From Lachnospiraceae bacterium (GTDB taxonomy: Bacteria > Bacillota > Clostridia > Lachnospirales > Lachnospiraceae): DNA of 32,788 bases. The notes beneath the pieces were generated by a model. That model ran no database searches. It saw nothing but the letters and a program-made list of their open reading frames with translations, and was not told the origin of the DNA. How positions within the stretch are numbered: the first letter of the stretch is position 1; every line of letters starts with the position of its first letter. Both the position numbers and the translations under genes were made by a program. This document shows, piece by piece, positions 16,090 to 31,370 of this stretch. Where the stretch lies: contig JAAWNY010000031.1 of NCBI GenBank assembly GCA_022799175.1, forward strand, positions 1-32,788, read 5' to 3'.

Positions 16090-16620
16090 ATGAAAAAGGA
16101 ACTGTTGAAAATCATGAAGGAAAGACGCTCTGTGCGCAGTTATAAAAAGGATCTTATGATCCCGGAAGATGTATTGCAGGAGATTCTGGAGACTGCAACT
16201 TATGCACCGACAGGCGGCGGTAGACAGTCACCGGTCATCATTGCAGTTACAGATAAAACCATGCGGGATCACATTGCGCATCTGAACGCGAAGATCATGG
16301 GAGATGAGAATGCAGATCCGTTCTATGGAGCACCGGCTATTGCGTTGGTTCTGGCAGATGGCAGCAAGAGCACTTGGGTGGAAGATGGTACAAACGTACT
16401 TTGCTATCTGATGCTGGCAGCAAAAGCGTGTGATGTTTCCAGTGTATGGGTACACAGGGAAAAAGAAATTTTTGACAGTGAAGAAGGAAAGAAGCTTCTG
16501 AAACAGTGGAATCTTCCGGAAAACTTAAGAGGTGTCGGTGCAGTGGCACTTGGATACCTGGAAGGCGAGGAGCCGAAAGCAGCTCCCCGCAAAGAAGGTT
16601 ATATCGTAGAAGTACGTTAA
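16090..16620 (+). CDS. Nitroreductase-family FMN oxidoreductase
   Basis: A 176-residue flavoprotein of the nitroreductase fold. The N-terminus carries the family's FMN-phosphate-binding pattern RRSVRSYKKD, followed by ILETATYAPTGGGRQ, and the C-terminal half has GVGAVALGYLEGE. The small size suits the short nitroreductases common in Clostridia. Members transfer hydride from NAD(P)H to nitro compounds, quinones or other acceptors; the substrate is not predictable. Of two in-frame ATGs (16081 and 16090) the second is preferred because GAGAGG abuts the first. The gene is convergent with and overlaps the PucR-type gene by three bases. Its transcription terminator appears to lie inside that gene's 3' end. 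No clear promoter was found upstream, although TTGTAA and TTACAA (16031-16052) form an inverted repeat there. Confidence 0.88.
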   Translation: MKKELLKIMKERRSVRSYKKDLMIPEDVLQEILETATYAPTGGGRQSPVIIAVTDKTMRDHIAHLNAKIMGDENADPFYGAPAIALVLADGSKSTWVEDGTNVLCYLMLAAKACDVSSVWVHREKEIFDSEEGKKLLKQWNLPENLRGVGAVALGYLEGEEPKAAPRKEGYIVEVR

Positions 16621-18218
16621 AACCGGACCTTAAATTTATAAAGATAGACAGCGGCCTCCAGCAGGAAATGATCATTCCTGTTATGGAGGTCTTTTTTTGT
16701 AATTTCCTGGATACTCTTGATGCGGTACGCAATGGTATTGTAATGCGTAAACATTTCTTCTGAGATTCTTTTTACATTTCCGGCATATTCAAAATAATAA
16801 TCCAGAGTCTTTAAGAGATCTGTGTGTTTCTGGTGATCGGTTTCAATCAGCGGACCAAGCAGTTCCTGGACGAATAGGCTGGTTTCTTTTTCTGGGTCCG
16901 CAGCGTACAAAAGACGTAACAGACCGAGATTTTCAAAATCAAGAACAGTCTGTTGGTTCAGCAGCGCAGTGCGCAGTGCGGTGCGGGCTTCAGTATCGCT
17001 CTGGACGATTCCGCGGATACCCGGGTGAGGGCGGCCACAGCCGGCAGAAATATGAAGATCCGGATATTCCTGGGCAAGTGATGTGATCAGCTTTGGAATA
17101 TGGTGTAATAAATGTTCCAGATCAGAACTGGATGCAGGGGCGTTCAGCAGGATCAGGTAATCATCGGAAGTAGGGACAATCCGTACGTCCAGTCCCAACC
17201 TTGAAAAAACAGAACGGATATTGCCCATAAGGAGTGTGTGCTGAAAATCTTTTTTATATTGATTTTTTTCATCCTGAATCTGTGTTTTTAAACGCAGGAT
17301 TAGGTGGTTGTCAGCGAGTGTGAGCTTAAATTCATCGGCGCGGTTTTGTTCAAGCTGATGGTCTACGATAGGGTCTGATAGAAGATGGAGTAGAAAACTG
17401 GTGAAAAGAGAATCTCCCTGTTCCCGGACACTTTGTTTCCGCGTGATTTCCAGTGGAATGGCGGTGAGAACCTGCGATAAAAGCTCCGGGGGAAGCGCCG
17501 GAGACTGGGTCGGGTTGTAGATATAAAGGCAGCCGTAGGAGTGGTCTCCTAATGTCAGATCGTGTGCCTGGGAGCGCTGGATAAGTGTATTGATCATCTG
17601 AGATTCGGAGTCTTCCTTAAAATCGTTGCGGTCTTCTTCCTTAAGAAAGATACTGTGGCGGTTGTTGACGCTGTCTACAATCAGGATACTGCCGCCGGTA
17701 AGCTGGGAAATCATGAAAGCAATCTCATCTAGATTGGCTCCCTCGGTGATGGTCTGGGTCAGCATCTGGTTTACAGAAAGGGTATTTCGCAAAAGCGCAG
17801 TCCGGCGACGGGTCAGTTCGTCGGAAAGTACCCGGGTAATACGGGAAAACTGCATGTCGGGCGGAAGTACAATGAGCGGAAAGCCAGCTTCATTGGCTTG
17901 TTGGATCATAATGGGGGGAACAACGTTGTCGAGGTATTGTGAAGGTTTGATGCAGAATGCGGCCATCTGGTTTTGCACTAAAGTAGGAATATAGGCATTC
18001 ATGGCATCAGGGTCCTGATAGACAGAAAAACAGGTGGATATCATCAGCTCACCCGGGGAAATCCACTGTCCGTAATCAGGGTTGTCGCTTAAGTTAATGC
18101 CGGAAACAGTGCGGTTTAACCCACTTTCACCGGCAGCAAGATAGCTGGTCGAAAAAATAGGGAGTTTTAAAAGCTCCTTTACGGTTGGGTAATAGGTTTC
18201 TTCAATATAGTAGTTCAT
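16617..18218 (-). CDS. PucR-family transcriptional regulator of the catabolic operon
   Basis: A 533-residue regulator. The N-terminus (about 8-130) is a PucR purine-catabolism domain (TVKELLKLPIFSTSYLAAG..., ISPGELMISTC). The middle is a GGDEF-like regulatory region. The C-terminus (about 475-530) is the PucR helix-turn-helix (YFEYAGNVKRISEEMFTHYNTIAYRIKSI). The family usually activates purine, ureide or other nitrogen-catabolic genes in response to the substrate or an intermediate. The start at 18218 has GGAGG at the right spacing; an upstream ATG at 18233 does not. It is divergent from the DUF2877/FdrA operon and is its likely activator. It has a near-consensus promoter (18257-18285) overlapped by an operator-like motif that recurs before the operon, suggesting coordinated and self-controlled expression. 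Confidence 0.9.
   Translation of the reverse strand: MNYYIEETYYPTVKELLKLPIFSTSYLAAGESGLNRTVSGINLSDNPDYGQWISPGELMISTCFSVYQDPDAMNAYIPTLVQNQMAAFCIKPSQYLDNVVPPIMIQQANEAGFPLIVLPPDMQFSRITRVLSDELTRRRTALLRNTLSVNQMLTQTITEGANLDEIAFMISQLTGGSILIVDSVNNRHSIFLKEEDRNDFKEDSESQMINTLIQRSQAHDLTLGDHSYGCLYIYNPTQSPALPPELLSQVLTAIPLEITRKQSVREQGDSLFTSFLLHLLSDPIVDHQLEQNRADEFKLTLADNHLILRLKTQIQDEKNQYKKDFQHTLLMGNIRSVFSRLGLDVRIVPTSDDYLILLNAPASSSDLEHLLHHIPKLITSLAQEYPDLHISAGCGRPHPGIRGIVQSDTEARTALRTALLNQQTVLDFENLGLLRLLYAADPEKETSLFVQELLGPLIETDHQKHTDLLKTLDYYFEYAGNVKRISEEMFTHYNTIAYRIKSIQEITKKDLHNRNDHFLLEAAVYLYKFKVRF
16654..16698 (+). terminator. Nitroreductase terminator embedded in the pucR-like 3' end
   Basis: GCCTCCA pairs with TGGAGGT, an inner CAGGAAATGATCATTCCTG palindrome extends the stem, and a TTTTTTT tract follows (16692-16698). 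It lies 34 bases after the nitroreductase stop and is entirely inside the last codons of the convergent PucR-type gene. Confidence 0.7.
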
Positions 18219-18256
18219 CTGGGCTTCCTCCATTCAAAATTGAAACGCTTACCAAA

Positions 18257-18399: not shown

Positions 18400-19272
18400 A
18401 TGAAGGTGCGGGTTCGGATCTGCAGCCGCTTATACGAAGCACTGTCGGAACAGACACTGGAAGGAACTTTACATTCCTGTTTTCACAGAGCCATGAATAT
18501 GGCATATGAAAACGGCCTGGTTACCTTTCTTGTAAAAGAAAAGAGCCTTCAGCCTTTTTCACTAAATCTCGACTGGAGAGGCGATTTCCTGTTTATGAAA
18601 GAACTGGTACGTTCCAGGGGAACAGAAATGCGGTTAAATCTGCAGGGGCTCTGGATTGGAACTTATCAGGTGTTTGAGTTTGAAACGTTTGAGATTCTGA
18701 ATCTGAAGAAAAGGCAGAGTGAGATCCTGAATCCGGAAGCAGCCAATTTCATCCGAAGTTTTCTTTCACATCAGGAGGAAAAAGGAATTCATGGGTTAAT
18801 TGAAGGAAGAACAGAGGATGTGTTTTCCGCTTTTCTTGCATCGAAGATCGAAGCCTTTCGAGAAGCAGTGCAGAATGGGGAACGGGAAACAGCGGTGTAT
18901 GCGGCAGGGCAGCTGGCTGGAGGAGGGCCGGGCCTGACACCTTCTTCCGATGATTTTCTCTGTGGCTATATAGTAGCGTGGCCAGAGAATTATCCCTGGG
19001 AAGGGTTTGCGGAAACAGTCACCGGTGCAGCGGCATCCAGAACAAACGATGTCAGTGGATCTTTGTTGAAACATGCGGGCGAAGGAATGTTTTCAGAGGA
19101 TGTTCTTGGTCTTCTGGAAGGATTTGCAAACTGCGACGCAGAACAGATTCGCACAGCGCTGAAACGTGTTGCCTGTTTCGGAAGCAGCTCGGGATGTGAT
19201 TTCCTGACCGGCATGTATTATGGAATTATCGATAGCAATGAGATGGGAGGAAACAGATGTGGTAAAGCTTGA
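18400..19272 (+). CDS. DUF2877 protein (AllH/YlbF-like), carbamoyltransferase component
   Basis: A 290-residue cytoplasmic protein with the DUF2877 signature GGPGLTPSSDDFLCG at about 175-189. In E. coli the relative YlbF is one of three subunits (AllFGH) reported to make up oxamate carbamoyltransferase in anaerobic allantoin breakdown. Here it is the first gene of the operon, right after the PucR-controlled intergenic region, with GGGAGGAG before the ATG. Its last codons overlap the start of the FdrA-like gene, so the two are translationally coupled. By context it is part of a carbamoyl-transferring complex, but its acceptor substrate need not be oxalurate because no allantoin genes are present. 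Its exact biochemical contribution is unclear even in relatives. Confidence 0.85.
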   Translation: MKVRVRICSRLYEALSEQTLEGTLHSCFHRAMNMAYENGLVTFLVKEKSLQPFSLNLDWRGDFLFMKELVRSRGTEMRLNLQGLWIGTYQVFEFETFEILNLKKRQSEILNPEAANFIRSFLSHQEEKGIHGLIEGRTEDVFSAFLASKIEAFREAVQNGERETAVYAAGQLAGGGPGLTPSSDDFLCGYIVAWPENYPWEGFAETVTGAAASRTNDVSGSLLKHAGEGMFSEDVLGLLEGFANCDAEQIRTALKRVACFGSSSGCDFLTGMYYGIIDSNEMGGNRCGKA

Positions 19273-20815
19273 AATCAGAAAAAACACCTATTACGATTCA
19301 GTAACCCTGATGATCATCTCGAAAGATGTAAAAAATCTGTCAGGTGTTTCCGAAGCACTGGTAGGCATGGGAACGGATCTGAACCGTGAGATTGCGGGAA
19401 ATCTTGGCTTAGATGCAGATGGCTTTGAGGAAGTAACCGCAAATGACTTTTTTGTGGCAGCGGATTGTGATGACGAGAACTGCTTCAAAAAAGTAGTGGA
19501 AAAGGTAGATGAACTGCTGAACAAGAAAGCAGAAAAAAGCAAGGCAGAGTATTTCCCGCCGACTCTGGATGGAGCCATAAAAGTGGAAAAAAATCTGAAC
19601 ATGGCAGTGATTTCAGTTCCGGGACGTTTTGCGGCAGATGTTGCAAAAGACTGCCTGGATCGTGACATCAACGTTATGCTGTTCAGTGATAATGTCACCA
19701 TTGAGGAAGAAAAAGCACTGAAAGAGTACGCAGTATCCAAAGAACTCCTGATGATGGGTCCAGATTGCGGAACCGCAGTTATCAATCATGTACCGCTTGC
19801 ATTTGCAAATGTGATTAAGCCTGGAAAAATCGGTCTTGTGTGTGCATCCGGAACCGGTGCGCAGGAAGTTTCCACTATTATCGACCAGCTTGGTGAAGGT
19901 GTTTCCCAGCTCCTCGGAACTGGTGGAAGAGATTTAAAGAGTGAGATTGGCGGAATCATGATGAAGCAGTGCCTGAACGCACTAATTGAAGATCCGAAGA
20001 CAGAAATTATTGTGCTGGTGTCCAAACCGCCGGCAAAGGATGTGGAGGATCAGATTTTAAAGATTGCTGCTAATGCTGGCAAGCCGGTTGTAGTCTGCTT
20101 CATTGGCGGTGACGCAGAGAAAATTAAAAAAGCCGGATTATATGCAGCAGTATCCCTGGAAGATGCAGCGCATAAGGCAGTGGCACTGGCAAAGGGAGAG
20201 GCCGTATCGGATTTTGAAGATTTCACCATGGGCCTTGAGAAAGCGGAAGCGCTGGCCGTAGAGGAAAAAGCCGGCATGATCCAGGGGCAGAAATATGTGA
20301 GAGGCCTTTATACCGGCGGAACCATTTGCGATGAGGCAATGAAACTTCTGATCGGAAGTATGGGACATATTTATTCCAATATCCCGCTGAAAGCGGAAGA
20401 TAAACTGGAAAACGCAAGAAATGGAAAGTCACGGGAAAATACTTTCCTGGATTTCGGAGATGATGAGTTTACTGTTGGCCGTCCGCATCCGATGATTGAT
20501 CCATCCCTGAGAGCAGAGCGTGTGGTCGAGGAGGCAAAGGATCCGGAAACCGCTGTGATCCTGGTAGACTGTGTGATTGGCTATGGTTCCCACGAGGATC
20601 CGGCAAAGGATTTATCCGATGCGATTCGGAAGGCAAAGGAACTGGCAGCAAAAGAAGGCCGTTACCTGTCTGTGGTAGCTACTGTATGCGGCACAGAGAG
20701 TGATCCGCAGAATCGTACAGCAACATCTCTCCAACTGGCAGGAGCAGGGGCAATTGTACTTCCGTCCAATGCACAGGCAGCGAGATTTGTAGAACTGATC
20801 ACGAAAAATCTGTAG
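19259..20815 (+). CDS. fdrA: FdrA-like acyl-CoA-synthetase-fold protein (AllF-type carbamoyltransferase subunit)
   Basis: A 518-residue protein of the FdrA family, which shares the fold of succinyl-CoA synthetase. Visible landmarks are MGPDCGTAV (about 166-174), the Rossmann-like GLVCASGTGAQEV (about 192-204), LGTGGRDL and, in the C-terminal half, LYTGGTICDEA. The old 'fumarate reductase' name is historical; E. coli FdrA is now reported as AllF of oxamate carbamoyltransferase. The chosen start is GTG at 19259, because GGGAGG sits at proper spacing and the homologous region begins right there. ATGs at 19220 and 19238 lie deep inside the preceding gene and lack ribosome sites. The gene overlaps DUF2877 by 14 bases and is followed after 15 bases by DUF1116. 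The set plausibly catalyses phosphorolysis of an N-carbamoyl compound to carbamoyl phosphate. Confidence 0.9.
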   Translation: MVKLEIRKNTYYDSVTLMIISKDVKNLSGVSEALVGMGTDLNREIAGNLGLDADGFEEVTANDFFVAADCDDENCFKKVVEKVDELLNKKAEKSKAEYFPPTLDGAIKVEKNLNMAVISVPGRFAADVAKDCLDRDINVMLFSDNVTIEEEKALKEYAVSKELLMMGPDCGTAVINHVPLAFANVIKPGKIGLVCASGTGAQEVSTIIDQLGEGVSQLLGTGGRDLKSEIGGIMMKQCLNALIEDPKTEIIVLVSKPPAKDVEDQILKIAANAGKPVVVCFIGGDAEKIKKAGLYAAVSLEDAAHKAVALAKGEAVSDFEDFTMGLEKAEALAVEEKAGMIQGQKYVRGLYTGGTICDEAMKLLIGSMGHIYSNIPLKAEDKLENARNGKSRENTFLDFGDDEFTVGRPHPMIDPSLRAERVVEEAKDPETAVILVDCVIGYGSHEDPAKDLSDAIRKAKELAAKEGRYLSVVATVCGTESDPQNRTATSLQLAGAGAIVLPSNAQAARFVELITKNL

Positions 20816-20830: not shown

Positions 20831-22258
20831 ATGAGCAAGGTAAATGAGTTATTTGAGAAAGAATTATGCGTAGTCAATTTCGGTATTGAGTCTTTTTATC
20901 AGGACCTGAAAAAGCAGAATGTCAAATCGGTCCATGTTGCGTGGAAACCGGTGGCTGGCGGAGATAAAAAGATTGCCGGTTATTTAAAACAGTTAAAGGA
21001 TCCGAATCTGGCAGAGAAGATCGCAGCCGCAAACAAGGAGGCACTTGGCAGAATCCTTGCGGCTCAGCCGGCGCTGGTAGGAATGTCAACTGCCGGAGAA
21101 GCAATTCCTGGCATGACAAAAACGACGATCCTTCATGCTGGCCCGCCAGTGAAGTGGGAGGACATGTGCGGTCCTATGAAAGGCGCTGTTATGGGCGGCT
21201 TGATCTATGAGGGACTGGCAAAGGATATGAAGGAAGCGGAAGAACTGGCCGGAAGCGGAAAGATTACCTTTGATTCCTGCCATCATCACAATGCAGTAGG
21301 TCCGATGGCTGGTATTGTTACTTATTCTATGCCGGTATGGCATGTGGTAAACAAAACATTCGGAAATGATGCGTACTGCACTATGAATGAAGGACTTGGA
21401 AAGGTACTGCGGTTTGGAGCTTGTGATGAAGAGGTATTTGACCGCCTGAGAAAGATGGAAAAGGTTTATTATCCGGTACTGAAAGAAGCACTGGAAATCC
21501 ATGGCGAGATCGATATGAAAGTTATGATTGCGCAGGCTCTGCAGATGGGAGACGAGGGGCACAACAGAAATAAGGCTGGCACGTCCTTGTTTATCCGTGA
21601 GATTCTTGCGGATGTTTACAAGACCCATTTTCCGCTGGAGCAGCAGCAGGAGGCAATTGCATTTATCAATGGAAATGACCATGCATTTCTGAATCTGTCT
21701 ATGCCGTCCTGTAAAGCTACGATGGATCCGACTCTGGGAATTCCGTACAGCACCATTGTTTCTACCATGAGCAGAAATGGTGTGGAATTTGGCATCCGGA
21801 TTTCCGGACTTGGCGCAGACCAGTGGTTTACGGCACCGTCCGAATATATCCGCGGCCTTTATTTCCCGGGATATTCCGAAGCGGACGCAAATCCGGATAT
21901 CGGAGATAGCTGTATTACAGAAACAACCGGAATTGGCGGATTCTGTATGGCAGCTTCACCAGCTATCGTACAGTTTGTAGGAGGCCAGGTTCAGGATGCG
22001 ATCAACTACTCTTCTCAGATGTACGAGATTACAGAAGGGGAAGGAAATGCCTATAAAATTCCGGTACTGGACTTCAGAGGCAGCGCAACTGGAATCGACA
22101 TTGTAAAGGTTTTGGAGACTGGAATCCGTCCGATCATCAATACTGGTATTGCTCACAAGGATTACGGCGTTGGACAGATTGGAGCAGGTCTTGTAAATCC
22201 GCCGGAAGGCTGTTTTACAAAAGCCATCGAAGCATGCGCAAAAGCATGGACAAACTAG
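20831..22258 (+). CDS. DUF1116 protein (YlbE/AllG-like), carbamoyltransferase component
   Basis: A 475-residue protein of the DUF1116 family; the E. coli relative YlbE is the AllG subunit of oxamate carbamoyltransferase. It starts MSKVNELFEKELCVVNFGIESFYQDL and contains the conserved VHVAWKPVAGG near the start and FDSCHHHNAVGPMAGIV in the middle. Length is typical. It follows FdrA by 15 bases with a GGGGAGGAGG ribosome site, so the three subunits come from one message. The family's gene order DUF2877-FdrA-DUF1116 is intact, which strongly supports a functional complex. The acceptor for the carbamoyl group is phosphate if the downstream carbamate kinase is its partner. No membrane segments. 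Confidence 0.9.
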   Translation: MSKVNELFEKELCVVNFGIESFYQDLKKQNVKSVHVAWKPVAGGDKKIAGYLKQLKDPNLAEKIAAANKEALGRILAAQPALVGMSTAGEAIPGMTKTTILHAGPPVKWEDMCGPMKGAVMGGLIYEGLAKDMKEAEELAGSGKITFDSCHHHNAVGPMAGIVTYSMPVWHVVNKTFGNDAYCTMNEGLGKVLRFGACDEEVFDRLRKMEKVYYPVLKEALEIHGEIDMKVMIAQALQMGDEGHNRNKAGTSLFIREILADVYKTHFPLEQQQEAIAFINGNDHAFLNLSMPSCKATMDPTLGIPYSTIVSTMSRNGVEFGIRISGLGADQWFTAPSEYIRGLYFPGYSEADANPDIGDSCITETTGIGGFCMAASPAIVQFVGGQVQDAINYSSQMYEITEGEGNAYKIPVLDFRGSATGIDIVKVLETGIRPIINTGIAHKDYGVGQIGAGLVNPPEGCFTKAIEACAKAWTN

Positions 22259-22297: not shown

Positions 22298-23098
22298 ATG
22301 AGTAAGTGGTCTGACATCAAAATCTACGATTTAAGTATTCCGATTGGAATCAGCACTCCGCCGTGGCCAACCTATGAGCCGCTTCAGGTGAAGTATTTCA
22401 AGCGTCTGGCACCGAATGGAGCAAACGGACAGCTTGTGACCCATTCTAATCATGTAGGAACCCATCTGGATGGCCCACGTCATTTCGACACCGCAGGAAG
22501 AGATATTGCAGCTCTGGAATTAACCAAGCTGTGTGCACCGGGTGTTGTGGTTGATTTGTCTGATATGGCAGAGGATTTCGGCATCTATACCCCGGAAGAT
22601 ATCGAGAAGCGCGTTGAGGTACGTGAGGGAGATATCCTGATCATCAACACTGGTTATCATAAGTATGGATTTGACCAGCCGGAGGCAGATGAGCGCCGCT
22701 ACATGCTGCGTCACCCGGGGCCGTCTCTTGATTTTATCAAGTGGGTACGTGAAAAGAAGATTAAATGGCTGGGAGTTGACTGCGGTTCCGCAGATCATCC
22801 GATGAATACTAAGATCCGTGACTGGGAGCCGATGGAGGCTGAAAAGTGCGATGCTATTTTCCGCAAGAAATATGGCAAGTCCTTAAATGAGATTTATCCG
22901 TGGCCGGAGCATTACCAGGCGATGCATTTAGAGTTGTTTGGCCAGCCGTATGAGGCAATCCACGCAGAGTGCATGGGTGGTGAGATTGATAAGCTGTCCA
23001 ACAAGCGTGTTGTAATCGGATGCTTCCCGTGGAAGTTCCAGGATGGAGAAAGCTGCATCAGCCGTATCGTGGCATTCGATGGTTTCGAGGATGTATAA
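22298..23098 (+). CDS. Cyclase-fold metal-dependent hydrolase (kynurenine formamidase/isatin hydrolase-like)
   Basis: A 266-residue member of the cyclase family. The metal site motif HxGTHxDxPxH is present as HVGTHLDGPRH (His52, His56, Asp58, His62). Further family landmarks are GDILIINTG (about 111-119), the D161-x-x-S-x-D166 segment (GVDCGSADH), and the C-terminal His210 and Glu224. Characterised members hydrolyse formamide, cyclic amide or lactam bonds: kynurenine formamidase, isatin hydrolase. In this operon it is the best candidate for hydrolysing a ring amide to give a ureido acid that the FdrA/DUF1116/DUF2877 complex could attack. A very strong AAAGGAGG ribosome site precedes the ATG, suggesting high expression. 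The specific ring substrate cannot be deduced. Confidence 0.9.
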   Translation: MSKWSDIKIYDLSIPIGISTPPWPTYEPLQVKYFKRLAPNGANGQLVTHSNHVGTHLDGPRHFDTAGRDIAALELTKLCAPGVVVDLSDMAEDFGIYTPEDIEKRVEVREGDILIINTGYHKYGFDQPEADERRYMLRHPGPSLDFIKWVREKKIKWLGVDCGSADHPMNTKIRDWEPMEAEKCDAIFRKKYGKSLNEIYPWPEHYQAMHLELFGQPYEAIHAECMGGEIDKLSNKRVVIGCFPWKFQDGESCISRIVAFDGFEDV

Positions 23099-23165: not shown

Positions 23166-24572
23166 ATGGGGACAACGCTATATAAAAATGCTGACTGGAT
23201 CATTACCATGAACGAGAAAAGAGAGAAAATCCGTCATGGTGATCTGCTGATTTCAGGAAAAGAAATTCTGGATGTAGGAACAGATCTGGAGAAAAAATAT
23301 GAAGGAATATTAAAGATTGACTATGTGGTAGAGGCAGAAGGAACGGTGATTCTTCCGGGTTTTGTAAATGTGCATCATCATACATGGCAGTCTCTGATCC
23401 GCAATATCCAGGCAACAAGAGGACTGAAGCTGGAACCGTGGCTGACTGTTATGTATGAGATCTATAAAGATCTGAATACGGATGTGGCCCGTGCCGGTGT
23501 TTATTCTGGTCTGGGAGATATGCTTAAAACTGGATGTACGACATCCAATGATCTTTGGTATCCGCATCCTGTGGGAGTAAAATATCTGGTTGACGCGGAA
23601 ATTGAGGCCGCGGCAGAAATTGGAATCCGTTTCCATCCGACCAGAGGATTCCACTCTGTACCTAGCAATATTGTACCGCCAGAAGTTGTGGATACAAAAG
23701 AGAGTGTTGTGGAAGACACGATCAGACTGGTGAAAAAATATCATGACCGGTCCCGTTTTTCCATGTGCCAGGTTGGCATCGCTCCGAGCATTGCCCAGTA
23801 TGAAACGGAAGATATCATTGAAGCTGTAGTAGATTTGGCAGAAGAGTATGACATTATGGTTCACGGTCATCTGGCAGAGAGCCAGCATGAGGTGGAATAT
23901 ACGCTGAAGACTTGGGGATGCCGGCCATTTGAGTGGTTTAAACGGCACCGTTTGCTTGGCAAACGGTTTTATTTTGCCCACTGCATTCATTTGAATGAAG
24001 AAGAAATCGCACAGATGGCAGAGACCAGAACCGGAGTGGCACATTGCCCGATCTCTAATATGCTTTTAAGTTCCGGTGCATGTCCGGTGCCTTCTTATCT
24101 GGAACACGGTCTCACAAGAATTGGTCTTGGTGTAGATGGAGCTGCCAGCAGCAATTCATCGAATATGCTGGAGGAAATCCGGTGCGCATATCTGTTAAAT
24201 CGTCTTACCTGGGGTGATAAGGCGGCAACACCGGATGATTATCTGTATATGGCAACGGCAGGCGGAGCAAAAGTTCTTGGACGGGATGACATCGGTTATC
24301 TGGCACCTGGAATGGCAGCAGATTTCACCCAGATGGACTGGAATCAGCTGACTTATGCAGGCGGATGCTATGATCCGGTGGCATGCATTGTAGAGAGCGG
24401 AGATCCTCGTCTTGTTAAAAATGTAGTAGTAAATGGGGAATTAGTAGTATCTTCTGGAAAACTTACAAAGGTAAGCGAAGAGGAGAAGCGTGACTACGTA
24501 AACCAGGTAGGAAAAGATCTTCTCACCAGGGCATCCGCAAGGATTGAAAGTCTGAAAGAGGATATTGGTTAG
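23166..24572 (+). CDS. Amidohydrolase, 8-oxoguanine deaminase/triazine hydrolase-like
   Basis: A 468-residue amidohydrolase of the SsnA/AtzB/8-oxoguanine deaminase branch. Metal and catalytic residues are all visible: H70-x-H72 (NVHHHTWQ), His235 and Glu238 (HGHLAES), His272 (AHCIHL) and Asp324 (LGVDGAASS). The C-terminal MATAGGAKVLGRDDIGYLAPG and YDPVACIV segments resemble bacterial 8-oxoguanine deaminases most. That family removes an exocyclic amino group from purines, pyrimidines, pterins or s-triazines, releasing ammonia. It is the fifth operon gene, 67 bases after the cyclase gene, with a good GAAGGAG site. An amino-heterocycle deaminase fits a pathway fed by the NCS2 permease downstream. 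Whether 8-oxoguanine, isocytosine or another compound is the real substrate cannot be told. Confidence 0.88.
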   Translation: MGTTLYKNADWIITMNEKREKIRHGDLLISGKEILDVGTDLEKKYEGILKIDYVVEAEGTVILPGFVNVHHHTWQSLIRNIQATRGLKLEPWLTVMYEIYKDLNTDVARAGVYSGLGDMLKTGCTTSNDLWYPHPVGVKYLVDAEIEAAAEIGIRFHPTRGFHSVPSNIVPPEVVDTKESVVEDTIRLVKKYHDRSRFSMCQVGIAPSIAQYETEDIIEAVVDLAEEYDIMVHGHLAESQHEVEYTLKTWGCRPFEWFKRHRLLGKRFYFAHCIHLNEEEIAQMAETRTGVAHCPISNMLLSSGACPVPSYLEHGLTRIGLGVDGAASSNSSNMLEEIRCAYLLNRLTWGDKAATPDDYLYMATAGGAKVLGRDDIGYLAPGMAADFTQMDWNQLTYAGGCYDPVACIVESGDPRLVKNVVVNGELVVSSGKLTKVSEEEKRDYVNQVGKDLLTRASARIESLKEDIG

Positions 24573-24611: not shown

Positions 24612-25814
24612 ATGCTGGATATTAAGATTACGAACGCGAAAACAAGAAATACCGGAAAAGAACTAGTTGAGATCGGAATTGAGAACGGAAAGATAACGGC
24701 AATCGCGTCTGCAGTAGAGGGCGAGGCAAAGCAGGTTATCGATGCAAAAGGAAACCTGGTAACCGAGTCCTTTGTAAACGGACACCTTCATCTGTGTAAG
24801 GTTTATACTCTGGAAATGGCCGGACAGGCTGCATTAAAAGAGTACAACGACAATAACATGGGCGGTGCTATGACTTCCATCGAGAGAGCAGCAGATTTCA
24901 AGGCATGCTATGATGAAAAGTGGATCATTGAGAATGTCCGTAAGGCATGCGATCTTGCTGTGAAATACGGCAATACCCATATCCGCGCATTTGCAGATGT
25001 GGACAGCAAAGCCAGACTGGAAGGCGTAAAAGGCGTTATCCGTGGAAGAGAGGAATATAAGGACCGCCTGGATATTCAGGTCGTTGCATTTCCGCAGGAT
25101 GGTGTTGCCAGAGAGCCGGGAGCAAAAGAACTGATCAAACAGGCTATGGATCTTGGTGCCGATGTAGTAGGTGGAATCCCGTGGATCGAGTTCACTGAAG
25201 AAGAGGAGTTAGACCATGTAAATTCTATGTGTAACTACGCAAAAGAGTATGACAAAGACATTTCCATGCTTCTGGACGATGTAGGTGATGCAGAGGAGAG
25301 AACCCTGGAGATGTTATGCAAAAAGGTCATCGAGATGGGCTGGCAGGGAAGAGCAACCGCACAACATTGCCGTGCCATGGAGCTGTATCCGGAGAACTAC
25401 TTCAGAAAGCTCGTTTCCCTCTTAAAGAAAGCCCAGATTGGTGTGGTATCTGATCCGCATACCGGTCCGCTGCATGCAAGAGTCAAAGACCTTCTGAAGG
25501 CAGGCGTGCCGGTTGCTCTTGGACAGGATGATATAGCAGATGCTTACTATCCATACGGTGAGTGCAATATGCTTCAGGTAGCTTTCCTGGCAAGCCATTT
25601 ACTCCACATGGTAAGCTTCGACGACATGGAGCTGCTTTACGACATGATCACAACAAGCGCCGCAAAGGTTCTTGGAATCAAAAACCATGAACTGAAAGAA
25701 GGCGGAGATGCAGATCTGGTAGTACTTCAGGATGAGGATGTATACCATGCAATCTGGCATCACACAGCACCGGCTTATGTTATTAAGAACGGCGTTGATA
25801 TTACCGTAAAGTAA
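24612..25814 (+). CDS. Cytosine deaminase-like amidohydrolase with altered active site
   Basis: A 400-residue protein aligning by eye over its length with E. coli cytosine deaminase (CodA). Shared landmarks: VNGHLHL (His58, His60), VGGIPWIEFT, AQHCRAM (His252, matching CodA His246), LGQDDIADAYYPYG (Asp306, matching Asp313) and NMLQVAFLASH. The HCDE motif that supplies CodA's third metal histidine and its catalytic glutamate is LLDD here (residues 220-223), and CodA's HDD is QDD (305-307). The fold and part of the metal site are kept, but the chemistry or substrate probably differs from cytosine. Relatives also include the triazine enzyme AtzC and creatinine deaminase-type enzymes. It lies 39 bases after the other deaminase with GGAGG before the ATG. 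Confidence 0.85.
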   Translation: MLDIKITNAKTRNTGKELVEIGIENGKITAIASAVEGEAKQVIDAKGNLVTESFVNGHLHLCKVYTLEMAGQAALKEYNDNNMGGAMTSIERAADFKACYDEKWIIENVRKACDLAVKYGNTHIRAFADVDSKARLEGVKGVIRGREEYKDRLDIQVVAFPQDGVAREPGAKELIKQAMDLGADVVGGIPWIEFTEEEELDHVNSMCNYAKEYDKDISMLLDDVGDAEERTLEMLCKKVIEMGWQGRATAQHCRAMELYPENYFRKLVSLLKKAQIGVVSDPHTGPLHARVKDLLKAGVPVALGQDDIADAYYPYGECNMLQVAFLASHLLHMVSFDDMELLYDMITTSAAKVLGIKNHELKEGGDADLVVLQDEDVYHAIWHHTAPAYVIKNGVDITVK

Positions 25815-25836: not shown

Positions 25837-26538
25837 ATGGAAAATAAGAAAGGAAGATTTGCAGAGATTGCGTATGTCCTGGGAATAATTCTGTGCCCAC
25901 TGGGGGTCTGCCTGTCGGCGAAAAGCGGATTTGGCGTGTCAATGGTAGTTGCACCGGCCTATGTGCTTTATTTGCGTATTTCAGAAACAATTCCCTGGTT
26001 TACTTTTGGAAAATCAGAGTATATCTTTCAGGGATTGCTGCTGATCGTGCTGACCTTTGCTGTGCGGCGCTTTAAGTGGAAGTATCTGTTATCTTTTGTT
26101 ACGGCGTTTATTTACGGAAATATTTTGGATCTGTGGTATGTTGTATTAGGTTCGGAACAGTATACCGTATACTGGCAGCGCGGAATGGCTTGTGTTTTTG
26201 GAATTCTGATCACTTCACTGGCCATAGCTTTTTTTCTGAGAACGTATCTTCCTCAGGAAGCTTATGAAATGTTCGTAAAGGATGTAGCGGATTCGTATCA
26301 GAAAGATATGACAAAAGTGAAATGGCTGTTTGATTTGTCAGCGCTTTTGATCGCAGTAGTTCTTATGCTGGTGTTATTCCGGCGGTTTGCTTTTAATATG
26401 GTCGGATTAAACACAGTTCTTGCAACAATCGTAAATGCTCCGCTGATCGGCTTTTTTGGAAAAATGCTGGATCGTGCCGGAAGTTTTGATTCTTCATTCC
26501 CGGAGTTTTACCAGAAATTTCAGAAGATTATGAATTAA
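25837..26538 (+). CDS. DUF6198/YczE-like membrane protein
   Basis: A 233-residue integral membrane protein with about five hydrophobic segments, opening FAEIAYVLGIILCPLGVCLSAKSGFGVSMVVAPAYVL. This matches the YczE/YitT-like family (DUF6198) of poorly understood Firmicutes membrane proteins. The G-[FV]-G-V-S-M motif after the first helix is typical. The last 30 residues are hydrophilic. AAAAAGGAG precedes the ATG, 22 bases after the previous gene. In an operon with two other transporters it may help movement of a substrate or product, but no function has been shown for the family that I can rely on. Confidence 0.75.
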   Translation: MENKKGRFAEIAYVLGIILCPLGVCLSAKSGFGVSMVVAPAYVLYLRISETIPWFTFGKSEYIFQGLLLIVLTFAVRRFKWKYLLSFVTAFIYGNILDLWYVVLGSEQYTVYWQRGMACVFGILITSLAIAFFLRTYLPQEAYEMFVKDVADSYQKDMTKVKWLFDLSALLIAVVLMLVLFRRFAFNMVGLNTVLATIVNAPLIGFFGKMLDRAGSFDSSFPEFYQKFQKIMN

Positions 26539-26571: not shown

Positions 26572-26630
26572 ACTTGAAAAATCTTAGAACCAGGAAACTG
26601 GAAACTTTTGGGCAGAACGAGGTGAAAATT

Positions 26631-28043
26631 GTGAAAAAAATATTTGATGCACTGGTAGATGGCAGTGTGGCATTAATCAGCCGTTTTCTTCCGGATGCGT
26701 ATATTCTGGTGTTGCTTCTTACGGTAATCCTGTTTGTGGTTGCGGTTCCAGTTACAGGAATTGCGCCGGCAGAGGGAATTACCGTGGCGGATCGGCTGGT
26801 GAATCTGGTGTACGATGGCTGGTATGGCGGTTTCTGGAATCTTCTTGGCTTTGGGATGCAGATGGTTCTGATTGTGGTGACGGGAACGATGTTTGCCAAT
26901 ACAGAACCGGTTCACCGCATCATCGTAAAGATTGCGTCTATTCCGAAAACTCCGAGACAGGCACTGCTTTTAGTTTCCGCAGTGGGTATGGTCGCGTATT
27001 TTTTACAGTGGGGAGCCGCTTTGATTGTATGTGCGGTCTTGGCACAGGAAGTGGCAAAGCAGGTAAAGGGAATTCATTATCCGCTTCTGGTAGCGGCCGC
27101 TTATGTTGGAAACGCGTTTTGCCTGGTAGGAATATCCGGAACGATTGCACTCAATGTTGCCGGAGGCTGGACATTTGATGGGGGATGGAGTACAACGGGA
27201 ATTCCTTTTCGTGAAACGGTATTTGCGCCATACAACCTGTTTATTTATCTGGTAGGAGCAATTGTGCTTTGCCTTTTGATTACGGCTATGCATCCGTCTC
27301 CTGAAAAAACAAAAACTGTGGATCCGGCAATCTTCGCTGAGGAGACGGTGGAAAAACAGTATAGGCCACGCAGTGAGATGACGCCGGCTGAAAAGTTGGA
27401 AACATCTGTACTTTTAAATGGTCTGATTGCGTTTATTGGCTTTTTCTGCGTAATCTGGAGTTTTGTAGATTCTCTTTATATCAAAAAACAGTCATTTTCA
27501 CTTTCTATTAACCAGGTGAATATGCTCTTTCTGTTTGCATCGATCGCAATGTATAAAACTCCTGTACGTACGGTAGCGGCAGTAAAAAAATCTCTGGGCG
27601 GAGCGGTTGGCGTTGTGCTTCAGATGCCGTTTTATGCCGGAATTGCCGGATTGATCAGCTATCACGGCGGTTCAACCGGTGTTTCCATCGCACAGGTGAT
27701 TGCCGGATTTTTTGTACATATTTCCAATGTGCAGACCTTTCCGCTGTTCACTTGCCTGAGCGCGGTGATCGTAAAGCTGTTTGTACCAAGCGGCGGAGCC
27801 CAGTGGGCGGTTCAGGGGCCGATTGTAATGCAGGCGGTCCAGAGCTTTATGCCGGCTGTGTCGGAAGGAAAGGCAGCAATGGCACTTTCCTGGGGCAATT
27901 CCTGCTGTAATCTGCTTCAGCCGTTCTGGCTGATTCCGGTGCTGGAAGTCGCAAAACTGAAAGTCAGGGATGTTATGGGATATTGTGTGATTTGTCTGCT
28001 GGCACTTCTGGTGATTATATCCGCAGGATTGTTATTTTTATAA
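26631..28043 (+). CDS. AtoE-like short-chain fatty acid transporter family (TIGR00366)
   Basis: A 470-residue polytopic membrane carrier of about 12 helices. Family landmarks: FLPDAYILVLLLTVILFV, WNLLGFGMQMVLIVVTG, KTPRQALLLVSAVGMVAYFLQWGAALIV, HYPLLVAAAYVGN, and VPSGGAQWAVQGPIV in the C-terminal half. E. coli AtoE imports acetoacetate and other short-chain acids. The chosen start is GTG 26631, with GAGGTG six bases upstream; the longer frame from TTG 26574 overlaps the stem-loop and lacks a ribosome site. In this operon a small carboxylic acid is a likely end product of ring cleavage, so the protein could export it. Import of an acidic substrate is the alternative. The NCS2 permease further down is the better candidate for heterocycle uptake. 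Confidence 0.88.
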   Translation: MKKIFDALVDGSVALISRFLPDAYILVLLLTVILFVVAVPVTGIAPAEGITVADRLVNLVYDGWYGGFWNLLGFGMQMVLIVVTGTMFANTEPVHRIIVKIASIPKTPRQALLLVSAVGMVAYFLQWGAALIVCAVLAQEVAKQVKGIHYPLLVAAAYVGNAFCLVGISGTIALNVAGGWTFDGGWSTTGIPFRETVFAPYNLFIYLVGAIVLCLLITAMHPSPEKTKTVDPAIFAEETVEKQYRPRSEMTPAEKLETSVLLNGLIAFIGFFCVIWSFVDSLYIKKQSFSLSINQVNMLFLFASIAMYKTPVRTVAAVKKSLGGAVGVVLQMPFYAGIAGLISYHGGSTGVSIAQVIAGFFVHISNVQTFPLFTCLSAVIVKLFVPSGGAQWAVQGPIVMQAVQSFMPAVSEGKAAMALSWGNSCCNLLQPFWLIPVLEVAKLKVRDVMGYCVICLLALLVIISAGLLFL

Positions 28044-28063: not shown

Positions 28064-29005
28064 ATGGGAAAACGAATTGTGATAGCTTTGGGCGGAAATG
28101 CGCTTGGTAAGACAATTTCCGAGCAGGCAGAGGTAGTAAAAGGAACTGCAAAGGCCGTAGCCGGACTGGTTCGGGCCGGTCATCAGGTTGTAATTTCACA
28201 TGGAAATGGACCACAGGTCGGAATGATCCAGAAGGCAATGACTGCTTTGCATAAGCAGGATCCGGAGCATTATGAGCTTTGTCCGCTGTCTGTGTGCACC
28301 GCAATGAGCCAGGGCTATATCGGACTGGATCTGCAGAGGGCACTGCGCAATGAACTCGAGAAATGTGGAATTTTAAAGTCCATCACAACCATTCTTACGC
28401 AGGTGGAAGTAAATCCAGATGATGATGCGTTTAAAAAACCATCTAAGCCGATTGGTGCGTATGTCACCGAAGTAGAGGCAGAAGTTCTGAGAAAAGAAAG
28501 AGGATTTGAGTTTGCGGAGGATGCAGGAAGAGGCATCCGCAGAGTTGTTCCGTCTCCAAAGCCGCAGCAGATTCTGGAACTGGAATCGATCCGGAAAATG
28601 GTAGAAGACGGACAGATTGTGATTGCCTGCGGAGGCGGAGGCGTTCCGGTAGTAAAAGAGGAAGACGGATATTTTGGAACAGAAGCCATTATCGATAAAG
28701 ACTTTGTTTCAGAAAAACTGGCGGAAGGGTTAAATGCAGATTACCTGATTATTTTAACAGCTGTTGAAAAAGTTGCGATTTTTTACGGCACACCAAGGCA
28801 AAAATGGCTGGAGCATATGAGTGTAAGAGAAGCAGAATTTTATATAGAGGATGGGCAGTTTGCTCCGGGCTCCATGCTTCCGAAAGTAGAGGCAGCGGTC
28901 GCCTTTGCAAAATCTGGTCATGGAAGAAAGGCTTTGATTACGCTTCTTGAAAAAGCGGAAGAAGGAATTGAAGGCCGGACTGGAACAGAAATATCTATGG
29001 TTTAA
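28064..29005 (+). CDS. arcC: Carbamate kinase
   Basis: A 313-residue cytoplasmic carbamate kinase, the normal length. Motifs: IALGGNALG (7-15), VISHGNGPQVG (43-53), RRVVPSPKP, IVIACGGGGVPV and IDKDFVSEKLAEGLNADYLIILTAVEKV. It converts carbamoyl phosphate plus ADP to ATP, CO2 and ammonia, the energy-yielding last step in fermentation of arginine, allantoin/oxalurate and related compounds. The second of two close ATGs (28064) is preferred because GGGAG is eight bases upstream; the long upstream frame overlaps the transporter gene. No arginine deiminase or ornithine carbamoyltransferase is nearby. The carbamoyl phosphate most probably comes from the FdrA/DUF1116/DUF2877 complex in the same operon. 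Confidence 0.95.
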   Translation: MGKRIVIALGGNALGKTISEQAEVVKGTAKAVAGLVRAGHQVVISHGNGPQVGMIQKAMTALHKQDPEHYELCPLSVCTAMSQGYIGLDLQRALRNELEKCGILKSITTILTQVEVNPDDDAFKKPSKPIGAYVTEVEAEVLRKERGFEFAEDAGRGIRRVVPSPKPQQILELESIRKMVEDGQIVIACGGGGVPVVKEEDGYFGTEAIIDKDFVSEKLAEGLNADYLIILTAVEKVAIFYGTPRQKWLEHMSVREAEFYIEDGQFAPGSMLPKVEAAVAFAKSGHGRKALITLLEKAEEGIEGRTGTEISMV

Positions 29006-29044: not shown

Positions 29045-30412
29045 ATGTATAATCCAGAACAGCCGGTTTTTGAAGAACAGCCTGAATCAAATATTGAAAT
29101 TGCATATGGAATTGAGGATGTGCCAAAACCATGGTGGAAGGCTATTCTTTTTGCATTGCAGATTACTCTGGTAGATTTTACACCGTTTATGTGGGCAGCA
29201 GGGTTTGCCTCTTTAGCAGGAATTGACCAGCCGGATTTTGTTCCGACGTTGCTTTGCGCATGTTTCTTCTGTATGGGAATCTGCACATTTTTACAGACAA
29301 CGGTAGGTAACCGCCTTCCCATTGTTCAGGGATCCTCTTCCGCACTTATGTCATCCATGGGAAACATTGCGGCTGTTTATGGTCTGCCAGCAGTGTGGGG
29401 AGCATCGCTGATTGGAGGTTTGATTCAGACAACCCTCGGAATTACAAAGACAGTAAGCAAGGTAAGAGCTTTCCTTCCTCCGGTAGTAGTTGGTTCTGTG
29501 GTGACAGCAATTGGGTTTGTCGCAGCGAGAATCGCGGTTCAGTGGACTTTTTCCAGACAGGAACCATTATATCTGGTTCTTGCGCTGATTTCGTTTTTGT
29601 TGGCGCTTATACTGAAATTTAAAACGAAAGGAATGGTATCCCAGGGTTTTATCCTTATTACGGTTGTTATCGTCGGAGTTGTGGTTTCTTCATTTCTGGG
29701 AATTTTTGACTGGAATGCAGTTTATGCCGCACCGTGGATAAAGATTCCACGTTTATTTCCATTTACAGGGCTGTCAGGACAGCCAAACGCAGTAATCACG
29801 TTTACGGCAGCGGCCATTATTGGTGGATTCAGCGGCTATATGGGAGCTATTTTTGAATCTGTCGGGGATTATGCGGCAACCTGCGCAGCCTGTGATGAGA
29901 TTTACCGTGTGAAACATATTGATAAAGGAATCATGGCCAGCGGACTAGGCTGCATGATTACAGCCCTCTTTGGAGGCTTGCCGTGTACTTCCTACACGCA
30001 GAATATTGGCATTGTTGCAGCTACCGGCGTGGCATCCAGGCGGGTAACCCAATATGCAGGTGTTTTATTCCTGTTGTATGGCTTTTGCCCGAAAATGGCA
30101 TATATTCTTGCCGGAATTCCGAAACCAGTTATTGGGGCAGTGTTCCTTATCTCTGCGGCTTCCATTATGTTTTCCGGAATTGACTCCATTGTGTCATCAC
30201 CGAGAACTCTGAGAAACACGCTGGTAGCAGGAATTACTCTGACGCTGGCAGTTATGCTTCCGTATCAGTGTACTTCTACTTATAAAGAGTGGGCAGACAG
30301 CCTTCCTCCATTTTTAAATATGTTGTGCACCTCACAGGTTTTTATTGCTGTACTTTGTGGTGTGGGACTGAATATATTGCTGAATTTTGTTTTACGGGAT
30401 AAAGAAGAATAA
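29045..30412 (+). CDS. NCS2 family nucleobase (uracil/xanthine) permease
   Basis: A 455-residue, about 14-helix transporter of the nucleobase-ascorbate (NCS2) family. Landmarks: the N-terminal LQITLVDFTPFMWAAG, GNRLPIVQGSSSALMSSMG in helix 3, ESVGDYAATCAACDE in helix 8, and the family signature near QNIGIVAATG (319-328) following GGLPCTSYT. Members import uracil, xanthine, urate or related heterocycles with H+ or Na+. Which ligand this one takes cannot be read reliably. It begins 40 bases after carbamate kinase with GGGAGAG before the ATG. It is the strongest evidence that the operon's substrate is a purine- or pyrimidine-like ring. Confidence 0.92.
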   Translation: MYNPEQPVFEEQPESNIEIAYGIEDVPKPWWKAILFALQITLVDFTPFMWAAGFASLAGIDQPDFVPTLLCACFFCMGICTFLQTTVGNRLPIVQGSSSALMSSMGNIAAVYGLPAVWGASLIGGLIQTTLGITKTVSKVRAFLPPVVVGSVVTAIGFVAARIAVQWTFSRQEPLYLVLALISFLLALILKFKTKGMVSQGFILITVVIVGVVVSSFLGIFDWNAVYAAPWIKIPRLFPFTGLSGQPNAVITFTAAAIIGGFSGYMGAIFESVGDYAATCAACDEIYRVKHIDKGIMASGLGCMITALFGGLPCTSYTQNIGIVAATGVASRRVTQYAGVLFLLYGFCPKMAYILAGIPKPVIGAVFLISAASIMFSGIDSIVSSPRTLRNTLVAGITLTLAVMLPYQCTSTYKEWADSLPPFLNMLCTSQVFIAVLCGVGLNILLNFVLRDKEE

Positions 30413-30452
30413 AAGAATGTGGTACGTTGTACGTGCTGATAAGGAGAAGACC

Positions 30453-31370
30453 ATGATTCAGAAATTAATTGAAAAGATTCAGAAAACAAAGGCACCGATC
30501 TGTGTTGGACTGGATCCGATGTTAAATTATATTCCGGAATATATTTTAAAGAAGTCCTTCAGAGAGTTTGGTGAGACGTTAGAAGGAGCAGCAGATGCTA
30601 TCTGGAATTTTAATAAGGAGATTGTGGATCATACCTGGGACCTGATTCCGGCTGTGAAGCCACAGATTGCCATGTACGAGCAGTTTGGTATTGAAGGATT
30701 GAAGGCATATGACAGGACTGTGAAATATTGCCATGAGAAAGGCCTTGTGGTTATTGCTGACGCAAAACGCGGCGATATCGGTTCTACCTCAGCAGCATAC
30801 GCATCAGCTCATCTGGGCAGAGTGAAAGTTGGAAACAATAGTTGTTCTATATTCAATACAGATTTTATTACTGTGAACCCGTATCTGGGAAGTGACGGAG
30901 TAAAACCCTTTATTGATGTTTGCAATGCAGAGGATAAAGGCATTTTTGTGTTGGTAAAAACCTCGAACCCCTCCAGTGGGGAGTTTCAGGATAGGCTGAT
31001 TGATGGTAAACCGCTTTATGAGCATATTGCTGACAGGGTGGTTGAGTGGGGCAGGATATCTATGGATGGCGCATACAGTAATGTCGGAGCGGTCGTAGGA
31101 GCAACCTACCCGGAGATGAGCGTTATTTTAAGAAAACTCATGCCCAAAACCTACTTCCTGGTACCTGGTTATGGTGCACAGGGCGGTACGGCAAAAGATT
31201 TAAAGAATTGTTTCAATGAAGATGGACTTGGAGCAATTGTCAATTCTTCCCGCGGCATTATTGCAGCGTATCGTCAGGAGAAATACGCAAAGTTTGGTGC
31301 AGAGCACTTTGCAGAAGCATCCAGACAGGCAGTTGTTGATATGTCTGCAGATATTAACAGTGTTCTGTAA
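30453..31370 (+). CDS. pyrF: Orotidine 5'-phosphate decarboxylase, long-type
   Basis: A 305-residue enzyme of the longer PyrF subgroup (about 270-310 residues, as opposed to the 230-residue form). Motifs: ICVGLDP (17-22), the catalytic K-D network DAKRGDIGSTS (Asp103, Lys105, Asp108), VNPYLGSDG, and the phosphate-binding PGYGAQGG with VNSSRGI near the C-terminus. It converts OMP to UMP in pyrimidine synthesis. The ATG at 30453 has AAGGAG at good spacing; the longer frame from 30387 overlaps the permease end. It is 40 bases after the permease and probably on the same transcript, which is unusual because pyrF normally sits with pyrK, pyrD and pyrE. It may be a second copy or simply appended to the operon. 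Confidence 0.95.
   Translation: MIQKLIEKIQKTKAPICVGLDPMLNYIPEYILKKSFREFGETLEGAADAIWNFNKEIVDHTWDLIPAVKPQIAMYEQFGIEGLKAYDRTVKYCHEKGLVVIADAKRGDIGSTSAAYASAHLGRVKVGNNSCSIFNTDFITVNPYLGSDGVKPFIDVCNAEDKGIFVLVKTSNPSSGEFQDRLIDGKPLYEHIADRVVEWGRISMDGAYSNVGAVVGATYPEMSVILRKLMPKTYFLVPGYGAQGGTAKDLKNCFNEDGLGAIVNSSRGIIAAYRQEKYAKFGAEHFAEASRQAVVDMSADINSVL

Follow-up and report, generated by a model that had tools for sequence, protein, structure and literature searches.

A Lachnospiraceae operon joining an AllFGH-type carbamoyltransferase to a cyclase-fold hydrolase, and its proposed place in a widespread anaerobic gene system for pyrimidine rings at the barbiturate oxidation level

The contig JAAWNY010000031.1 of Lachnospiraceae bacterium (assembly GCA_022799175.1; 2.97 Mb in 122 contigs, 91% complete), analysed here over its entire length of 32,788 nucleotides and called the window below, carries an operon that joins a three-subunit carbamoyltransferase of the AllFGH type to a cyclase-fold metal hydrolase (PF04199). 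An earlier note, made from the sequence alone, had described a tightly spaced operon with a PucR regulator, the carbamoyltransferase trio, carbamate kinase, a nucleobase permease, two amidohydrolases, the cyclase and an AtoE-like acid carrier. Profile searches with Pfam and NCBIfam models, on which the family assignments rest, confirm these families, and the gene arrangement confirms the operon as a co-directional gene run divergent from the regulator gene. From allH to pyrF all genes read in one direction with intergenic gaps of -14 to 67 bases, most of the starts are preceded by a Shine-Dalgarno-like sequence (as judged by eye), and 166 bases separate the starts of the divergent pucR and allH. 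A promoter scan gave no excess of sites (31 versus 27.7 in shuffled sequences). The gene list of the note stands for the families that it named; it omitted a YitT-like membrane protein, and its range took in pyrF, a probable passenger.

The PucR-type transcription regulator (16617..18233; Pfam PucR, HTH_30 and GGDEF_2) is encoded on the minus strand and all the operon genes on the plus strand. The subunits of the carbamoyltransferase are present together: AllH (DUF2877; 18400..19272; Pfam AllH, 79.5 bits for a cut-off of 25), AllF/FdrA (about 19259..20815; NCBIfam NF004760, 488.9 bits for a cut-off of 433) and AllG (DUF1116; 20831..22258; Pfam AllG, 311 bits). The start of AllF/FdrA is placed at a putative GTG at 19259, with a Shine-Dalgarno-like sequence by eye, the longest open reading frame (ORF) running from 19220. 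Then come the PF04199 cyclase-fold metal hydrolase, proposed to open a barbiturate-type ring (22298..23098; 124 bits with Pfam, cut-off 23.1), an 8-oxoguanine/isocytosine-deaminase-like amidohydrolase of the Amidohydro_1 family (23166..24572; NCBIfam PRK08203, 424.6 bits) and an AtzC/CodA-like amidohydrolase of the Amidohydro_3 family, nearest to cytosine deaminase (24612..25814; AtzC structure 5akq of the PDB, E 3.6e-54). The YitT-like membrane protein (DUF6198; 25837..26538; Pfam, 85 bits) precedes the AtoE-like short-chain acid transporter, the proposed carrier of the residual acid (26574..28043; Pfam SCFA_trans, 398 bits), a carbamate kinase with a putative start (about 28064..29005; 362.8 bits with the equivalog model TIGR00746, above its cut-off of 358.25), a PbuX-like NCS2 nucleobase permease (29045..30412; TIGR03173, 236 bits, below the cut-off of 414) and pyrF, encoding orotidine-5'-phosphate decarboxylase (about 30453..31370; TIGR02127, 285 bits for a cut-off of 110.6).

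With the window's cyclase as bait, a scan of named genomes gave at least 583 relatives, the best 80 of which were retained, so that the sample is biased towards close ones. Together with 20 stretches from two genome searches, less three duplicates of these stretches dropped before counting (L111, L135 and L141), and with the window, they make the 98 loci compared here. Counts out of 56 refer to the loci in which the cyclase is flanked by 8 kb or more to either side, 42 of the 98 being excluded for short flanks, and near-duplicates are still among the loci (L071/L109, L124/L125, L136/L137 and L068/L069). Genes were counted by tblastn, because in GC-rich loci the gene caller reports spurious ORFs on the antisense strand. 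The best 80 of at least 583 relatives fall into eight named phyla: Bacillota (53), Chloroflexota (8), Synergistota (6), Actinomycetota (3), Spirochaetota (3), Thermotogota (2) and two phyla found once each, with 3 rows unassigned.

Judged by gene content and linkage, the window operon belongs to a gene system of wide occurrence. Of the 56 full-flank loci, 54 have AllG no farther than 10.5 kb from the cyclase; FdrA is present in 54, PucR in 41, the large subunit of a molybdenum (Mo) hydroxylase in 39, NCS2 in 39 and AllH in 33, the latter being so variable that tblastn probably undercounts it. Less frequent are a class III CoA-transferase (25/56), carbamate kinase (14), a protein of the CDA group (9), the nitroreductase (8) and the 8-oxoguanine-deaminase-like gene (4). 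As a control, 40 reference proteins were searched against 20 random 20-kb windows drawn from 14 of the genomes that carry the loci, and none gave a match (tblastn, E 1e-10). The cyclase is matched in 2 of 200 genomes of the same family (E 1e-40 or better, own genome included) and in 42 of 398 genomes of the phylum (E 1e-30 or better, own included, a few at only about 33% identity), and AllG is found in 39 of these 42 genomes versus 21 of the 356 others (Fisher 4e-35). Among the matches listed, the closest cyclase is that of another Lachnospiraceae species, Schaedlerella arabinosiphila (91%). The co-occurrence across genomes that the earlier note had proposed to look for is thus found, and linked enzymes are seen with it: the Mo-hydroxylase, amidases and malonate genes. 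A search of the open-access full-text literature, with subscription literature outside its range, gave no description of this system by title or abstract start. What we regard as new here is the way in which known chemical steps are combined, the family of the ring hydrolase and the substrate proposed for the carbamoyltransferase.

The relatives add to this gene set. Their Mo-hydroxylase is a three-subunit enzyme of the xanthine dehydrogenase group, accompanied in some loci by the maturation genes XdhC, YqeB and YqeC. The best model of the NCS2 permease in L043, L102 and L063 is uracil permease, below its cut-off (268 bits in L043 and 330 in L102 for a cut-off of 477), and the CDAb protein of L048 comes close to cytosine deaminase (409.6 bits, cut-off 438). 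An amidase-signature amidase occurs in 14 and a nitrilase-family amidase in 15 of the 56 full-flank loci, and both together in none (p 0.012, the kinship of the loci being ignored). Since these two unrelated amidases occur one per locus, an amide seems to be a real intermediate, and they suggest two solutions to one step. Furthermore, parts of malonate or malonyl-CoA decarboxylases are found in 11/56 loci, 10 of which also have an amidase. For example, L102 encodes the alpha subunit of malonate decarboxylase (MdcA) above the equivalog cut-off (799 versus 789.15 bits), L068 encodes the subunit MadB of a sodium-dependent malonate decarboxylase beside a cluster of the window type (648.9 bits, cut-off 596.9), and MmdA, a biotin carrier and the beta subunit of a sodium-dependent decarboxylase are seen in L102, L104, L107, L060 and others. 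By comparison, none of the 98 loci has a match to the oxalyl-CoA decarboxylase of Escherichia coli in the neighbourhood of the cyclase, and an oxalate end of the route was rejected on that count.

The fold of the ring hydrolase is that of isatin hydrolase and kynurenine formamidase, both of PF04199, with which the window cyclase also shares the HxGTHxD metal motif. The best match of the predicted model is the structure 4m8d of isatin hydrolase, an enzyme that opens a cyclic amide. The cyclase differs from these enzymes by the low identity of its structural matches (12-20%), by a conserved SADHPMNT stretch and by its own operon context. In the window the motifs read HxGTHxDG..HF and SADHPMNT; the metal pattern recurs in 96 and the SADHPMNT pattern in 97 of the 98 cyclase ORFs. 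A search for the AtzD family (PF09663), which holds barbiturase and cyanuric acid hydrolase, gave no match in 17 genomes, the controls being equally silent.

Gene content, order and linkage, the mutually exclusive amidases and the lineage of AllG are the observations from which we build the following reading, all substrates and products being assigned by us: the system probably degrades a pyrimidine ring at the barbiturate oxidation level in anaerobes. In its general form, uracil, or cytosine after deamination, would be hydroxylated to barbiturate by the Mo enzyme of xanthine dehydrogenase type. The PF04199 hydrolase would then open barbiturate at a ring amide, giving 3-oxo-3-ureidopropanoate (ureidomalonate), an acylurea whose carbamoyl group the AllFGH-type complex would transfer to phosphate, with carbamoyl phosphate and malonamate as products. 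Carbamate kinase would make ATP from the carbamoyl phosphate, an amidase would split malonamate into malonate and ammonia, and the chain would end either in malonate decarboxylation or in a CoA-transferase followed by malonyl-CoA decarboxylase. As 3-oxo-3-ureidopropanoate is an acylurea like oxalurate, longer by one CH2, the proposed step would be the known chemistry of oxamate carbamoyltransferase applied to a homologue. The earlier note held that the sequence does not choose among substrates; the relatives point to a pyrimidine or barbiturate ring and to malonamate or malonate as product.

Two known pathways are comparable. The oxidative pyrimidine pathway of aerobic actinobacteria runs from uracil through barbiturate and ureidomalonate to malonate, so that the proposed ring intermediates and the malonate product are the same. 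Its ring hydrolase has the AtzD-type fold and the carbamoyl group is lost as urea, whereas here the hydrolase belongs to PF04199 and the carbamoyl group would be kept as carbamoyl phosphate. The reductive urate pathway, as presented in PMC12507026, includes the E. coli ygeW-yqeA genes and shares the phosphorolytic cleavage of a ureido compound to carbamoyl phosphate and ATP in anaerobes; its carbamoyltransferase is of another family and its chemistry is reductive and purine-based.

The carbamoyltransferase has a characterized counterpart in E. coli, where AllFGH converts oxalurate to oxamate and carbamoyl phosphate (as given in PMC11326118). The E. coli allFGHK operon likewise holds the same three subunit families with a carbamate kinase, and carbamoyl phosphate is the predicted end product in both cases. 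The window differs in adding the PF04199 hydrolase, the permease and the amidohydrolases, in having no match to AllC, AllD or AllE and in an AllG of another lineage. These three proteins have no match in the window or in the other 97 cyclase loci (tblastn, E 1e-10); they are matched only in E. coli itself, in L212, in L222 and in the control L202 (34% with AllD). In a quick AllG tree, made without bootstrap, E. coli AllG joins L212, a Firmicute AllG with an AllC-like neighbour (SH-aLRT 99), and the window AllG stands outside that lineage in a set of 16 cyclase-linked rows (SH-aLRT 100). The window genome has ten PF01979 rows: two belong to genes of the window itself, and the remaining eight fall within six ORFs, of which none matches an allantoinase model at E 1e-40. 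An allantoin origin of the carbamoyltransferase substrate was rejected by this gene content and by the AllG tree. The earlier note's statement that allantoin genes are lacking thus holds for AllC, AllD and AllE in the window and for allantoinase among the PF01979 ORFs of the genome; hydantoinases of other families and arginine deiminase, which it also listed as absent, were not searched. Its own counter-possibility, that the carbamoyltransferase serves only oxalurate supplied by allantoin genes at another place in the genome, finds no support as far as these searches and the AllG tree reach.

A variant of the system is formed by the window and L063, L067, L068 and L069, which share the nitroreductase, PucR, AllFGH, the cyclase, a CDA-group protein, carbamate kinase and NCS2. 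The 8-oxoguanine-deaminase-like gene is present in four of these five stretches and the Mo-hydroxylase in none; across the full-flank loci, that gene occurs in 0/39 with the Mo enzyme and in 4/17 without it. The five AllG rows group inside the rows of Mo type (SH-aLRT 92, in a quick tree with a faulty E. coli AllG row), and the tree rebuilt with the corrected row gives them the same nearest rows. A search of whole genomes for the Mo domain PF02738 gave no match for the window (91% complete) or for bacterium D16-56 (5.5 Mb, of unstated completeness), and the genomes of L063, L068 and L069 contain it 4, 4 and 2 times, outside the cluster stretches. In D16-56, and perhaps in the window organism, the ring would therefore have to arrive at the barbiturate level without such an oxidation, and it probably enters the window-type route already at that level. 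There the 8-oxoguanine/isocytosine-deaminase-like enzyme, perhaps with the AtzC/CodA-like protein, would yield the ring hydrolytically from oxygenated amino-pyrimidines, and the AtoE-like carrier would probably export the residual acid. An amidase-signature amidase adjoins carbamate kinase in L067, L068 and L069, MdcA/MadB stand at the locus edge in L068 and L069, and the D16-56 genome has MdcA elsewhere.

The two amidohydrolases of the window do not fit this role equally well. The 8-oxoguanine-deaminase-like protein keeps the metal ligands by alignment and is close to the PDB entry 7ww2 (E 6e-96), its score staying below the equivalog cut-off of 532. Enzymes of this name act on isocytosine, a 2-amino-pyrimidinone, according to PMC6186785, so by analogy 2-amino analogues of barbiturate are a plausible feed for the window-type route. 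In the AtzC/CodA-like protein, leucine takes the place of the beta-5 metal-ligand histidine, corresponding to the zinc ligand His217 described with the other metal ligands of AtzC in PMC4577212. The same holds for 10/10 members of the group (window, L063, L064, L067, L068, L069, L080, L122, L136 and L137; nine by pattern, L064 by alignment), which keeps the HxH motif, the beta-6 histidine and GQDD; six CDAb proteins retain the beta-5 histidine. Because of this replacement the deaminase activity of the group is doubtful; its metal site may be altered, or its role may be other than deamination. The order of events drawn up by the earlier note (import, deamination, ring opening, phosphorolysis, ATP) thus fits the gene content, while its use of both amidohydrolases as working deaminases is doubtful for the second. 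A redox-free pyrimidine fermentation without Mo-hydroxylase is a more speculative extension, which we hold only tentatively and think rather doubtful: 2-amino and/or 6-amino pyrimidinones would be turned by hydrolytic deaminases into barbiturate-level rings, opened by a barbiturase of the PF04199 family and fed to a malonamate carbamoyltransferase with gain of ATP. It would cover the window, Schaedlerella, bacterium D16-56 and two Flavonifractor, with skeletons like divicine or ring-opened guanine as example feeds.

Several observations weigh against the barbiturate-level reading as a whole. The cyclase model has a mean pLDDT of 75.1, with values below 50 over most of residues 22-65, which hold the metal motif, and the loss of the beta-5 histidine concerns a protein of the proposed route. 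The malonate or malonyl-CoA decarboxylase parts belong to a minority of loci, and the CoA-transferase of the relatives is nearest to oxalate CoA-transferases and would suit oxalate too. The window's own permease is PbuX-like, and in its genome neither the nitrilase-type amidase nor malonate decarboxylase alpha is matched, and the amidase-signature amidase is matched in part only (39%); the malonate end is for this reason drawn from relatives, and the organism may export malonamate, perhaps via the AtoE-like carrier, or the genes may lie in the missing part of the genome. The window is also one of 6/56 loci that have neither amidase, CoA-transferase or decarboxylase, nor thiolase. In 12/56 others a thiolase set is present, and amidase and CoA-transferase are both missing: thiolase never occurs with an amidase, CoA-transferase or decarboxylase (Fisher 3e-8, kinship ignored), a rule that is not clean, as MmdA in L062 is accompanied by a relative of the GNAT-fold partner. 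The AllG rows linked to the cyclase do not form a single clade (5 changes versus 20.0 on average in shuffles), and those of Synergistota and Thermotogota branch separately from the others. Finally, nitrifier genomes hold allFGHK beside biuret and triuret genes (PMC12625717), which shows that AllFGH sets occur in other settings.

The thiolase set consists of thiolase, a zinc-ribbon protein (zf-ChsH2) and a third protein that matches nothing in Pfam and whose model (pLDDT 87.5) has a GNAT fold. It lies at L126:3879-6099, and similar sets are found near the carbamoyltransferase in L043, L064, L065, L072, L073, L075 and L079. It is tempting to speculate that it takes over the amidase and CoA-transferase steps, possibly converting amide and CoA into acyl-CoA.

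Three other substrates have to be weighed against a barbiturate-level pyrimidine. A purine would call for the cyclase to open xanthine or urate to a ureido-imidazole carboxylate, from which AllFGH would take the ureido carbamoyl group, the deaminases making xanthine or urate from guanine or 8-oxoguanine. The PucR regulator, the PbuX-like permease and the 8-oxoguanine-deaminase-like gene agree with this, as does the best match of the relatives' Mo-hydroxylase, XdhA, even if below cut-off (557 versus 780), and in window-type clusters 8-oxoguanine deaminase alone could yield urate without a Mo enzyme. A purine nevertheless leaves the relatives' amidases, dicarboxylate CoA-transferases and malonate decarboxylase without a role, and it sits badly with the uracil-permease-like NCS2 of Mo-type loci and with the cytosine-deaminase-like genes in the clusters of L048 and L106; we regard it as unlikely. 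Slightly smaller still is the chance we give to a two-carbon route, in which a parabanate- or hydantoin-like ring would yield oxalurate, AllFGH would be a true oxamate carbamoyltransferase as reported for E. coli in PMC11326118, and the amide and acid would be oxamate and oxalate. The relatives' CoA-transferase, nearest to CoA:oxalate transferases, would fit, but oxalyl-CoA decarboxylase (0/98 loci) compares poorly with the malonate or malonyl-CoA decarboxylase parts (11/56), and the window AllG lies outside the E. coli lineage.

An s-triazine or biuret route appears very improbable. Here AtzB-like and AtzC-like deaminases would give cyanuric acid, the cyclase would open its ring and AllFGH would phosphorolyse biuret. 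The second amidohydrolase is indeed nearest to AtzC in the PDB, the first is nearest to an entry named 8-oxoguanine deaminase / hydroxydechloroatrazine ethylaminohydrolase, and the nitrifier allFGHK sets of PMC12625717 stand beside biuret and triuret genes. The replaced His217 ligand speaks against it; an AtzD-family match was not found in 17 genomes, the control being silent as well; the relatives' malonate genes would have no place, and the occurrence of the cyclase in eight named phyla among the best 80 of at least 583 loci argues against a herbicide route.

If the barbiturate-level reading is true, it assigns genes to a branch of oxidative pyrimidine breakdown that works anaerobically and conserves energy, spread over the phyla just mentioned. 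Three enzyme assignments would follow: a barbiturase from a second family, a carbamoyltransferase for malonamate and a route by which bacteria form malonate. Cultured strains with the cluster belong to Anaerotruncus colihominis, Flavonifractor, Schaedlerella arabinosiphila and Anaerocolumna aminovalerica, of which S. arabinosiphila represents the deaminase type and A. aminovalerica the Mo type. The comparison also cautions against taking every AllFGH/FdrA set for an allantoin enzyme.

A second AllFGH/carbamate kinase set of E. coli K-12, the putative or uncharacterized yahE-yahF-yahG-yahI-yahJ (L186), resembles the window in that a single gene run encodes an AllH/F/G-type trio, an amidohydrolase and a carbamate kinase-like protein. 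It differs by having no cyclase in the stretch and by YahJ, which fits another amidohydrolase model, PRK06846. YahG groups with L218 and L220, apart from AllG, and for this reason the YahG set may have a substrate other than oxalurate. Cyclase paralogues in L207-L211, 47-51% identical to the window's, stand with AllG/FdrA copies of their own; L208 holds in one stretch a paralogue (48%), FdrA, AllG, ArcC, a nitrilase-family amidase, a CoA-transferase, MmdA, BCCP and NaDecB. These clusters could be a thymine/methylmalonate counterpart.

Some members of the window operon are rare near the cyclase. The YitT-like protein and pyrF are each found there in 1/98 loci, the window itself, and the AtoE-like transporter is also found in L063 and L045; counterparts of the NCS2 permease occur at 66-76% in L063, L068 and L069. 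Because it is an ordinary PyrF by its model and so rarely linked, pyrF is probably a passenger in the same gene run, and a part in the route, e.g., as decarboxylase of an intermediate, is unlikely. Just outside the operon and convergent to pucR, a nitroreductase-family flavoprotein (15973..16620, plus strand; Pfam) has relatives at 54-64% in L063, L067, L068, L069 and L070, the gene in L067 (near 9225) sitting between allH and the cyclase.

Upstream, a two-component cluster (286-11674) comprises a 7TM histidine kinase, a LuxR-type regulator and two hybrid sensor kinases, and a 1007-aa ORF at 286-3309 has no Pfam match. A GMP synthase of 430 aa (12449-13741) has a complete synthase part, while its glutamine amidotransferase domain matches the profile only over positions 1-78 of 190 and the usual nucleophile motif was not seen by eye; the enzyme may depend on free ammonia. 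A single ORF at 14607-15299 runs from a piece of an AI-2E-type transporter through a matchless stretch into a 4Fe-4S ferredoxin domain and looks decayed or rearranged.

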